Origin: Chloroflexota bacterium
Lineage (GTDB): Bacteria > Chloroflexota > UBA6077 > JACCZL01
DNA length: 50,986 nt
Assembly: GCA_020850535.1 (NCBI GenBank)
Contig: JADZEM010000125.1
Location: 1-50,986, forward strand
Direction: 5' to 3'
Shown here: positions 33,560 to 43,140 of the stretch, one piece after another
How the letters are laid out: every line of letters begins with the position of its first letter
Position numbering within the stretch: the stretch's first letter is position 1
Program-made: the position numbers and the translations under genes
Notes under the pieces: generated by a model
Databases searched by the model: none
Seen by the model: the letters and a program-made list of their open reading frames with translations, nothing else
What the model was told of the DNA's origin: nothing

Positions 33560-34810
33560 GTGGACCAGGCTCGACGTTCCGAACCGTTCGTGTCGAACGT
33601 CGTCAACGGCCTGGGCGAGCGCGGCGCGGCGTGGCTCGACGCGCTGCCGACGGTGCTGGCGTCGCTGGCCGAGCGCTGGGGCCTCACGCTCGGGGAGCCG
33701 TTCGACCTGTCGTTCAACTACGTCTGCCGGGCGACCGTTGATCCGCGAGGGCGGCGGTCCGCCGCCAGTCGCCGCGTTGACCCCGAATCACCTGCCATCC
33801 CGAGCGGAACAAGCCTGCGAGTGGAGTCGAGGGATCTTCCTTTGCACGACCAGGAAGATCCCTCCACTTCGCTCGTACCTCGCCGCGGTCGGGATGACGG
33901 CGGGGAGCTTGGACCTCGTGTCGCTTGCCCTGAGCGTGCCGAATGGGGTCGGGATGACGAACGAGCGTCACGCGCACCTCGGTCTTTTGCTGACCCAGCC
34001 CCCCGGCCGGCTGCGCGGCGCAACAATCAGCGTCGCCGACATCATCTCCGACGCGGAGAGGGGGTGGCGTTCGACGAGGGTGAGGCGGTGCTCAAGGTCG
34101 GGCCGTGGGGCGCGGAGAACGTCCAGGAGATCCGCGCGCTGCGCCTGTACGCGGGGCGGGGGGCCTGCCGCCTGCTGGAAGCGGACGAAGACGTCGGAGC
34201 AGCACTGCTGGAGCGGGTACGGCCGGGCCGGCGGCTGCGAGACGTGGTGACCGACGACGACGCAGCGACGCGCATCGCGGCCGGGTTGATGCAGCGGCTC
34301 TGGATACCAGCCGGCGAGATCGCCGACACGAGGGGGCTGCGCCCACTGGCGTCCTGGTTCACGCGGGCGTTCGCGCGGCACCGGGCCGAGTACGGCGGCG
34401 CCGGGCCATTTGCCCCAGGCCTGTTCGAGGCGGCTGAGCGCATCGCTGGCGAGCTGCTCGCGTCCGCGCCGTGCGAGGTGCTCCTCCACGCCGACCTGCA
34501 CCACGAGAACATCCTGACCGGTGAGCGCGAGCCGTGGCTGGCCATCGACCCGAAAGGCATGCTCGGGGATCCGGGCTACGAGGTTGGACCGTTCCTGCTG
34601 AATCCCGACCCGCAGGCCAGCCCGCCAAAGGACGGCCCGCGGCTCCATCGCCGCCTGGACCTCTTCGCCGAGGCGCTCGCCTACGACCGCGAGCGGCTGC
34701 GCCTCTGGGGCGTCGTGCACGCGGTGCTGTCGGCTTGCTGGAGCGCAGAAGATGGCGGCTCGGGCTGGCAGAACGCCATCACGGCAGCCGAGCGCCTGCT
34801 CGAACGGTGA
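33560..34810 (+). CDS. APH(6)/hydroxyurea-type kinase interrupted in frame by a palindromic repeat
   Basis: This 416-codon frame resembles the aminoglycoside/hydroxyurea antibiotic resistance kinase family (PF04655), which phosphorylates small hydroxylated compounds. Residues 1-59 (ERGAAWLDALP, RWGLTLGEPFDLSFNYV) and 173-416 (GEAVLKVG with Lys179, HADLHHEN with catalytic Asp312, IDPKG) match the family. About 110 residues between them are foreign, encoded by a repeat insertion at roughly 33738-34075 that happens to keep the frame open. The insert falls in the N-lobe sheet just before the ATP-binding Lys, so activity is doubtful and the gene may be a pseudogene. The GTG start lies in a GGCAGT-rich stretch. 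Confidence 0.82.
   Translation: MDQARRSEPFVSNVVNGLGERGAAWLDALPTVLASLAERWGLTLGEPFDLSFNYVCRATVDPRGRRSAASRRVDPESPAIPSGTSLRVESRDLPLHDQEDPSTSLVPRRGRDDGGELGPRVACPERAEWGRDDERASRAPRSFADPAPRPAARRNNQRRRHHLRRGEGVAFDEGEAVLKVGPWGAENVQEIRALRLYAGRGACRLLEADEDVGAALLERVRPGRRLRDVVTDDDAATRIAAGLMQRLWIPAGEIADTRGLRPLASWFTRAFARHRAEYGGAGPFAPGLFEAAERIAGELLASAPCEVLLHADLHHENILTGEREPWLAIDPKGMLGDPGYEVGPFLLNPDPQASPPKDGPRLHRRLDLFAEALAYDRERLRLWGVVHAVLSACWSAEDGGSGWQNAITAAERLLER
33738..34075. repeat. Palindromic repeat inserted in the kinase gene
   Basis: Arms 33819-33841 and 33852-33874 (cores GAGGGATCTTCCT and AGGAAGATCCCTC) form a hairpin. The outer arms CATCCCGA (33796-33803) and TCGGGATG (33889-33896) extend it. The right arm, 33853-33897, recurs at 35596-35640 with about three mismatches in 45 nt. 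The boundaries are set by where kinase homology stops and resumes, so they are approximate, and no clean target duplication was found. Confidence 0.75.
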
Positions 34811-34858: not shown

Positions 34859-35425
34859 ATGCCTGAGCGAACTGCGCGCCTCTTCGTCGGGATCGACCTG
34901 GACGCGGTCTGGATGGCCGGCCTGACCAGCGCCGCCGACATGCTGCGCGAGCCGGTCGGCGACCGTGCGCGGTTCGTCAGGCCGGAGCTGTATCACGTGA
35001 CCGTGGTCTTCCTGGGCGACCAGAGTGAGTCTGACCAGGAAGCGGCCGGGCAGGCGCTCCGCGAGACCGTGGCCCAGTCCGCCCCCTTTGAGCTTCACAT
35101 GGCTGGCATCCAGCATCTCGGCGGCCACGAGCACGGCGCGCTGGTGGCCGCCCTCCAGGATCCATCAGGCGACCTGCAGCGGCTCCGTCAGCGCCTGGAC
35201 GAGGCCCTGCGCCGGCGGCGCGTCCGCTTTGACGCCAAGCTGCTGACGCCGCACATCACGCTGGCGAGGCCGAAGCGGCGGTCAGGCCCGCTGCCGATTG
35301 CCCCGATGGACCTCTCGGACGCGCCGCCGCTTCGGGTGAACGCCGTCAGTCTCTTGCGCAGCTTCCTCCAGCCGACCGGGCCGCGCTATCAGTCGCTGAT
35401 GAAGCTGCGACTGACGGGCGGATAG
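34859..35425 (+). CDS. thpR: RNA 2',3'-cyclic phosphodiesterase (2H family, LigT/ThpR)
   Basis: This 188-residue two-histidine phosphoesterase opens 2',3'-cyclic phosphate ends of RNA and in vitro can join tRNA half-molecules. Both catalytic HxT motifs are present: YHVTVVFLG with His46/Thr48 and PHITLARPK with His132/Thr134. The N-terminal LFVGIDLD and the C-terminal SLLRSFLQPTGPRYQ are standard for the family, and the length is normal. It begins 48 bp after the kinase gene and probably has its own promoter. No RNA-repair partner lies nearby. Confidence 0.93.
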   Translation: MPERTARLFVGIDLDAVWMAGLTSAADMLREPVGDRARFVRPELYHVTVVFLGDQSESDQEAAGQALRETVAQSAPFELHMAGIQHLGGHEHGALVAALQDPSGDLQRLRQRLDEALRRRRVRFDAKLLTPHITLARPKRRSGPLPIAPMDLSDAPPLRVNAVSLLRSFLQPTGPRYQSLMKLRLTGG

Positions 35426-35439
35426 CCGCTGCCCCAACT

Positions 35440-35699
35440 GCAAGACGGCCCTCACCCCCCGACCCCCTCCGCTAAGCCCCGACGACGCTGCACGACCCGC
35501 GCAACGTGCAATCGCCCTGGAAGCGTCGGGAGTCGCCTCGACAGTCGGCGTGCGGACGCTCCAGATGGCGTGGAGGGATCCTCGGGGGCGTGTGAGGAAG
35601 ATCCCTCCGCTCCGCTCGTGCCTCGCCGCGGTCGGGATGACGAGTGGGAGAGTGACGCAGGCTCGCTACGGTCCGGATGACGAGTACGCGTGTCCCCCG
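35440..35699. repeat. Intergenic mosaic of dispersed repeats
   Basis: The 274 bp between thpR and the lactonase gene hold three repeat pieces and no gene. First is a GGCCCTCACCCCC fragment (35442-35470). Second is a half-copy of the MITE family ending in GCAATCGCCCTG (35479-35519), lacking its left arm. Third is a second copy of the palindrome inserted in the kinase gene (35572-35643). The clustering suggests a preferred landing site between convergent genes. Confidence 0.7.
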
Positions 35700-36785
35700 T
35701 CAGCCGACGCTCGGGGCGAAGATCGTGCAGACGGCGTTGGTGAACGTCAGTTGCGGTCCGGTCGGCGTCAGCGCGCCGGTGTCCTGGTCGATGCTGAACA
35801 CGACCGCGTTGTCGCTGTCCTGGTGCACGCAGACCAGGAACCGGCCACCCGGCTCGATGTTGAAGTTGCGGGCGACCTGCCCGAGCGTCGGGGCGTGGCC
35901 GGCCAGCGTCATCCGGCCCGTCGCCTGATCGATGGCGAAGATCACGATATCGTCTGACATGGTGCCGGAGCCGCGATTCGACCCGTAGACCCACTTCCCG
36001 CTCGGATGAACGATCACCTGGGCCGTCCACTTCCGGCCGGTCCAGCCGGGCGGCAGGGTCGACTCGGTGTGCAGCTCCTCGAACACGCCGCGCTCGGCGT
36101 CCCAGGCGAGGGCCGTCATCTCGGCGCTCAGCTCGTTGATGACGTAGGCGAACCGGTTGCTCGGGTGGAAGGCGATGTGGCGCGGACCCCGCCCCCGTGC
36201 GAACTGGATGTACGGTGGATCGTTCGGCGTCAGCGTGCCGTTCGCGGTATCCAGGCTGTAGACGTAGGTGCGGTCGAGGCCGAGATCGTTCACCACGACC
36301 CACTTGCCGGACAGGTCGAACGGGCACTGGTGCGCCTTCGCCTGGGTCTGGTCTGGATGGGGACCGGGCACCTCGCCCTCGTGCTTGCGGACGTCGGTCG
36401 GCGCACCCAGGCTGCCGTCCTCGTCGATCGAGACGACACAGACCGCACCGCCCGAGTAGCTGGCCCCGACGACGTACTTCCCGCTCGGATCGACGCTGAT
36501 GTGCGACACGCTGCTGGTGCCCGTCGGCGAGCTGTTCAGTGGCGTCAGTTGCCCTGAGGCAGCATCAACGGCGAACGCCGCGATAGCGTCGCCGTCGACG
36601 GCGGCGTACAGGAACCGCTCGTCAGGGCTGAGCGCGAGCCACCCGCGACCCGGGATGTCGTTGCCACCGATGTCGGTCAGGACGCCAGTCTCGGTGTCGA
36701 GGGTGGCGATGAAGATGCCCCGGCCCCGGCTGCTGCTGCCGAAGTAGGTGACCAGGGGCCGAGCATCAGGCTGTGCGGCTGTCAT
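35700..36785 (-). CDS. Lactonase-family (6-phosphogluconolactonase-like) beta-propeller
   Basis: This 361-residue cytoplasmic protein has the YbhE/Pgl-type seven-bladed propeller fold and no signal peptide. Each blade repeats a pattern such as HISVDPSGKYVVGASY, HIAFHPSNRFAYVINE and VIVHPSGKWVYGSNRG. The family includes 6-phosphogluconolactonase of the pentose phosphate pathway and lactonases of other sugar acids. No zwf or gnd lies nearby, so the substrate is not fixed. GGAG precedes the ATG. It is divergent from the PhyH-like dioxygenase gene, sharing a 192-bp intergenic region with a tandem repeat. Confidence 0.88.
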   Translation of the reverse strand: MTAAQPDARPLVTYFGSSSRGRGIFIATLDTETGVLTDIGGNDIPGRGWLALSPDERFLYAAVDGDAIAAFAVDAASGQLTPLNSSPTGTSSVSHISVDPSGKYVVGASYSGGAVCVVSIDEDGSLGAPTDVRKHEGEVPGPHPDQTQAKAHQCPFDLSGKWVVVNDLGLDRTYVYSLDTANGTLTPNDPPYIQFARGRGPRHIAFHPSNRFAYVINELSAEMTALAWDAERGVFEELHTESTLPPGWTGRKWTAQVIVHPSGKWVYGSNRGSGTMSDDIVIFAIDQATGRMTLAGHAPTLGQVARNFNIEPGGRFLVCVHQDSDNAVVFSIDQDTGALTPTGPQLTFTNAVCTIFAPSVG

Positions 36786-42876: not shown

Positions 42877-43140
42877 CGCCTGCGCCCCTCACCCGCGCCC
42901 GGTCATCGTCCGTCAGGTTGGAGGCCATCACCCCCAGCCCAGTCAGGCCACCGGGCCTGTGCGCGGGAGAGGGGGAGTCCATCTGAGGCCTGTGTATCTC
43001 CCCTCTCCGCATCGGAGAGAGGCCGGGGTGAGGGCCTCCAGCGTGTCGGACGAAATACGCGGCTATTTCGTCAGTCTTCAAGAAGCCCCGACACGGCCGC
43101 TGGTGCCGTTCATCATACAATCGCCCTGCGCGTCCTTCTG
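42877..43140. repeat. Intergenic palindromic repeats between converging genes
   Basis: No gene is visible in the 387 bp between the sigma factor gene and the DUF350-like gene. An inverted pair, GCCCCTCACCC (about 42885) and GGGGTGAGGGCC (about 43024), frames a stretch with CCCTCTCCG-type sub-repeats. A small hairpin GACGAAATA/TATTTCGTC follows (about 43048-43071). A half-copy of the MITE family ends at 43128 with CAATCGCCCTG. This combination resembles the mosaic at 35440-35699. Confidence 0.6.

Follow-up and report, generated by a model that had tools for sequence, protein, structure and literature searches.

In-frame dispersed palindromic repeats in the beta2-beta3 turn of an APH(6)/hydroxyurea-type kinase gene of a Chloroflexota bacterium

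In-frame insertions of palindromic DNA into protein-coding genes are best known from Rickettsia and from scattered REP-bearing genes. The Rickettsia palindromic elements (RPE; Ogata et al. 2000/2002) are dispersed palindromes of about 150 bp that lie in frame in genes of otherwise conserved proteins and are predicted to be compatible with the fold, and nearly half of them are intragenic, according to the summary in PMC10969869. REPs show a 3'-biased placement, between convergent or tandem genes and almost never between divergent ones; intragenic REP clusters encoding 43-82 aa are on record, two Xanthomonas species have REPs at much the same place in recB, and the CGTC repeats have no dedicated transposase (PMC3733652). 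The literature that we searched, with partial coverage, held no report of such an in-frame repeat insertion in Chloroflexota.

Here we describe a kinase gene interrupted in this manner, within a window of 50,986 nucleotides (the whole stretch of DNA analysed, to which all coordinates refer). Its features are as follows.

33560 to 34807, + strand: open reading frame of an APH_6_hur-family kinase including the insert, 416 aa, GTG start, stop codon at 34808-34810
33560 to 33736, + strand: N-terminal part of the kinase, up to and including beta2 (...SFNYVCRAT59), by orthologue alignment and a positive coding signal in the kinase frame
33737 to 34069, + strand: whole insert, 333 bp or 111 codons, open in the kinase frame and absent from orthologues, with the codon signal lost from about 33740 to 34055
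33737 to 33795, no strand assigned: left flank of the insert, holding the short palindrome GGCGGCGGTCCGCCGCC, with only short, chance-level matches in the loci of other copies
33796 to 33961 (approximate), + strand: element 1, a dispersed palindromic repeat with hairpin arms at 33818-33841 / 33852-33875 and a 3' module GCTTGCCCTGAGC..GGTCGGGATGACGA
33962 to 33989, no strand assigned: 28-bp spacer between elements 1 and 2, barely covered by genome matches of either repeat
33990 to 34064 (approximate), + strand: element 2, a second dispersed repeat (CCTCACCCCCC...CTGCGCGGCGCAA...CATCATCTCC...GGAGAGGGGG), by genome matches and alignment of 11 other copies
34070 to 34807, + strand: kinase from beta3 (F171 DEGEAVLK179) to the C-terminus, by Pfam profile, orthologue alignment and kinase residues
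35595 to 35650, + strand: second, partial copy of element 1

The original prediction, of a palindromic repeat lying in frame in an APH(6)/hydroxyurea-type kinase gene, is borne out by the Pfam profile, the orthologue alignment and the repeat matches. PF04655 (aminoglycoside/hydroxyurea kinase) matches residues 175-399 of the ORF with an E value of 1.6e-51 and a score of 175.5 bits, far above the gathering score of 27, which places the protein in the family, and orthologue N-termini align with the first 59 residues. Kinase homology thus comprises residues 1-59 and 171-416, edges that refine an earlier placement near 60 and 173. The catalytic residues are complete: K179 (the beta3 Lys), D312 and N317 (HxDxxxxN) and D330 (the second Asp) are present and invariant across 74 sequences, and 36 of the 37 positions conserved in at least 85% of orthologues are retained. 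What sets this kinase apart from its family is the foreign 111-residue loop and a score of 149.8 bits against the NCBIfam APH_6 equivalog cut-off of 325, so the label of a resistance-type kinase, given to it previously, is not supported.

Between T59 and F171, the insert matches no kinase, and its limits, formerly drawn at 33738-34075, now fall at 33737-34069. Scanned with codon-usage log-odds trained on the long ORFs of the window, the kinase frame scores positive up to about 33740, negative inside the insert and positive again from about 34055; the loss and return of the signal in one frame indicate a coding gene interrupted by non-coding-type sequence with the frame kept. As had been claimed, the frame stays open throughout: the 333 bp are divisible by three and stop-free, so the gene could encode a kinase bearing a surface loop of 111 residues that is rich in arginine and predicted to be disordered (an example of the encoded peptide is DLPLHDQEDPSTSLVPR). 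The open frame on its own is weak evidence, since dinucleotide shuffling of the insert leaves 18% of the shuffled sequences open as well; by these shuffles an open frame together with a multiple-of-three length has a chance of about 0.18 x 1/3 and could be luck. An Rfam search of the window returned three tRNAs only, and a known RNA family was rejected for the insert. At the two junctions only an ambiguous short match (CGTT) was seen by eye, and we do not claim a target-site duplication.

The insert is a composite of two unrelated repeat families side by side, with about 85 bp outside both. Element 1 holds the inverted arms noted at the outset, 24 nt long and 88% complementary, and its RNA fold of -89.2 kcal/mol has z = -5.1 against 200 shuffles. 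Its edges were placed by alignment of 29 other copies, and the layout runs from a CGTCATCCCGAGCGGA-type start (TGCCATCCC in the kinase copy) through the central hairpin and GGTCGGGATGACG to the module GCTTGCCCTGAGCGTGCCGAATGGGGTCGGGATGACGA. Across copies the dispersed repeat measures 110-175 bp. Searched against its own genome by blastn, the insert gives at least 97 matches, nearly all within 33788-33969, a lower bound because 40 of 348 first-look candidates were scored; a two-box pattern finds 31 exact matches in the genome and none in a reversed control. Part of the insert thus recurs, as first noted, and not by chance. The kinase copy is diverged from its relatives, with 75-89% identity. 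A further occurrence in the window had been reported at 35596-35640; it is real and extends over 35595-35650, 56 nt that are 89% identical to 33852-33907, between convergent LigT-like (34859-35425, +) and lactonase-like (35700-36785, -) genes, named by Pfam.

Nearly all other copies of element 1 that we examined are intergenic, mostly 3' of genes. Neighbours of 57 distinct copies are convergent in 26 cases, tandem in 26 and divergent in 1, with 4 at contig edges. The kinase copy is itself scored as tandem because its 59-codon N-terminal part falls under the gene caller's threshold, and short gene fragments beside other copies could be missed in the same way. Long ORFs span some of these copies (L075, L100 and others), which were considered as further intragenic cases and set aside when neighbouring-gene calling placed them between genes. 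In the orientation of the kinase copy, 11 of the 87 frames of the 29 other copies are open, compared with two of three in the kinase copy, a more informative contrast than the shuffles of the insert.

Element 1 recalls the GTAG/CGTC REPs in several respects. Its copies typically start CGTCAT and end ATGACG, a CGTC tag with AT after it (CGTCATCCCGAG at the start and CGGGATGACG at the end of family copies; the 5' end of the kinase copy reads TGCCATCCCGAG), its placement between convergent or tandem genes with one divergent case is similar, and no RAYT was found for it. Y1_Tnp (PF01797) has no match in the genome, whereas five control genomes are positive; a RAYT-driven REP was rejected on this result, which agrees with the lack of a dedicated transposase in CGTC repeats, and a mobilising enzyme is presumed. 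In contrast to element 1, with its 110-175 bp and 24-nt-arm hairpin, a CGTC REP is a 20-40 bp unit with an 8-9 bp stem and a CCA tail, and the 111 aa of this insert exceed the intragenic REP clusters on record. Some other copies (L037, L040, L041, L049 and others) belong to larger units whose ends look like imperfect terminal inverted repeats (TAGTGG..TCAGTCG / ..GACGAGCCACTA; TAGTGG...CCACTA), and such units are possibly MITEs with element 1 as their interior. A regular-expression search for full-length units of this kind gave no match, and the kinase copy, unlike them, lacks such ends.

Where the original prediction saw a single palindromic repeat, element 1 stands; missed was element 2, an unrelated dispersed repeat that makes up roughly the last 75 bp of the insert. 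It has at least 44 matches in its own genome, the best 88% identical over 66 nt, again a lower bound, with 40 of 198 first-look candidates scored. Another element-2-like palindrome, CCCCTCTCCG-CATCGGAGAGAGG..GGGGTGAGG, occurs in the window at 42998-43037.

Structure prediction, proposed at the start as a check, was run with AlphaFold2 on a 74-sequence alignment and yields a confident kinase with a disordered loop; confidence in the core comes partly from the alignment and is no proof of folding. Most of the kinase reaches a pLDDT of at least 90, and residues 81-120 and 127-168 stay below 50. In the model beta2 spans 54-60 and beta3 175-180, so the insert occupies the beta2-beta3 turn of the N-lobe, a turn that in the general kinase fold lies on the outer edge of that lobe. 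The loop, foreseen as 110 residues just before Lys179, is thus present in the sequence with 111 residues and is now assigned to the turn of the beta2-beta3 hairpin. Foldseek gives LicA choline kinase, APH(3') and related kinases as the best solved structures.

Orthologues were sought with a protein query that fused the two kinase parts and left out most of the insert, and matches were found in 83 of the 400 genomes of the phylum that were scanned; no sister species nearer than about 59% identity was present among the genomes searched. None of about 95 orthologues carries the window's insert, and the segment from beta2 to the Lys measures 9-11 residues in nearly all of them by HMM alignment. 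The insert would have been a conserved domain had the family shared it, the outcome named beforehand as fatal to the idea; its absence from every aligned orthologue rules out a conserved accessory domain.

When the longer beta2-beta3 loops of orthologues were read at the DNA level, in-frame dispersed repeats emerged in the same turn of four distant kinases of f20, a Chloroflexota family other than that of the window's genome: L012 (G033), L186 (G336), L161 (G100) and L178 (G331). The inserts of G033, G336 and G100 are a CCCTCTCC..GGAGAGGG repeat, with palindromes of the CCCTCACCCC..CCCTCTCCC-GGGAGAGGGG type that on translation read PSPPAPLPEGEG in G033, SPSPLAPLPKGEG in G336 and, the palindrome being reversed there, EPSPSGRGQGEG in G100. 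Whole-genome counts of the palindrome pattern are 7 in G033, 67 in G336 and 78 in G100 (controls 0), and the window's genome has 151 matches (control 3). By eye, the inserts of G033 and G336 have the ends of element 2, CCTCACCCCC...GGAGAGGGG, with orientation and reading frame unchanged, and the G033 insert shares with element 2 the codons CCA GCC CCx ... GGA GAG GGG. The G331 insert is a different repeat, with matches at five further places in its genome. These inserts add about 8-20 residues, compared with the heavier load of 111 in the window kinase.

On the kinase tree, the insert-free G045 and G128 genes join that of G033 (support 84/91) and the insert-free G296 gene joins that of G331 (93/94), and the G336 gene falls outside that clade (97/96); several deep forks are weak. 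With insert-free genes as the nearest relatives of the G033 and G331 genes, the four insertions were probably independent events.

Other irregular loops were noted among the orthologues. For the insert in the L159 (G247) loop, blastn finds no further copy in that genome, and it was not counted as a repeat insertion; mildly long loops in L010, L011 and L150 are kept apart from the four repeat-bearing cases. In a second kinase loop, at about profile positions 152-159, L178 carries a dispersed repeat that is 94% identical over 50 nt to another site in its genome; palindromic inserts in the second loop (GAGTCAGCCAGCTTGCTGGC...GGAGCAAGCTCC...) also occur in L161 and L175. Kinase homology in L016 (G002, of the same family as the window's genome) crosses three reading frames around the same loop as the window's insert, which suggests frameshifts by decay or sequencing error. 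The L186 kinase lies at both ends of a single-contig genome (G336:C1 2265-3230 and 3964916-3965881), probably an untrimmed circular overlap.

We propose, with a probability of roughly 70%, that non-coding dispersed palindromic repeats entered a normal APH_6_hur kinase at the permissive beta2-beta3 turn and were tolerated there, in the manner of the RPE and the intragenic REPs. The insertion, the identity of the repeats, the frame, the intact catalytic residues and the independent-looking repeats in the same turn of orthologues were all established computationally. In the most likely course, palindromic repeats that are mobile or prone to copying landed by chance; insertions that kept the frame in the permissive turn would have survived, and those elsewhere or out of frame would have been lost. 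A stepwise order, element 2 first and then element 1 beside it, is plausible. The insert would persist because additional residues are tolerated in this turn, away from the catalytic core, and the protein would be made and active.

The alternative with the most in its favour, if unlikely, is that the repeats recently disabled the kinase and that the open frame and intact catalytic residues reflect the short time elapsed. A large, arginine-rich insert without coding signal, predicted to be disordered and built from repeats that are intergenic elsewhere, would fit such inactivation, and a hairpin of -89 kcal/mol could hinder transcription or translation. However, the length is divisible by three and no stop is present, even though most element-1 copies have stops in this orientation, and 75-89% identity to relatives gives no pointer to a very recent arrival. 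The first reading of this locus left open whether repeats create protein segments or silence the gene; the site in the beta2-beta3 turn, with repeats there in four distant orthologues too, favours tolerance over silencing.

That the insert has gained a function in this lineage, as a loop for regulation or binding, seems improbable. The frame is kept open and the same turn is repeatedly extended in other lineages, but the insert lacks coding-type codon use, AlphaFold2 confidence over it is low, and the inserts of different lineages stem from unrelated repeats. Slighter still is the prospect that dispersed repeats caused a wrong join within the kinase gene during assembly. The assembly is rich in repeats (227 contigs, 4.58% estimated contamination), yet complementary kinase halves flank the insert in order, in one frame and with nothing missing, which is not the product of a chimeric join through a repeat.

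Insertion of a dispersed palindrome into a conserved gene with the frame kept is common to the RPE and the kinase insert. The kinase insert differs in phylum and repeat sequence, in that nearly all copies here are intergenic, and in being a composite of two families. The kind of event is already known; what this case adds is the phylum, a composite of two families, a length of 111 residues and the recurrence in one loop across five genomes.

This recurrence, in which one enzyme family carries repeats of several families at one turn in five genomes of the phylum, is the interesting part of the finding. Tentatively, and at somewhat less than even odds, the beta2-beta3 turn may have taken up mobile palindromic repeats again and again across Chloroflexota, with one superfamily (CCTCACCCCC...GGAGAGGGG) having entered it in at least three genomes, including the window's, each time in one orientation and one reading frame, and such repeats may repeatedly give working enzymes new flexible loops. 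The turn offers a natural experiment on where in a protein mobile DNA is tolerated and on whether repeats can seed new protein segments.
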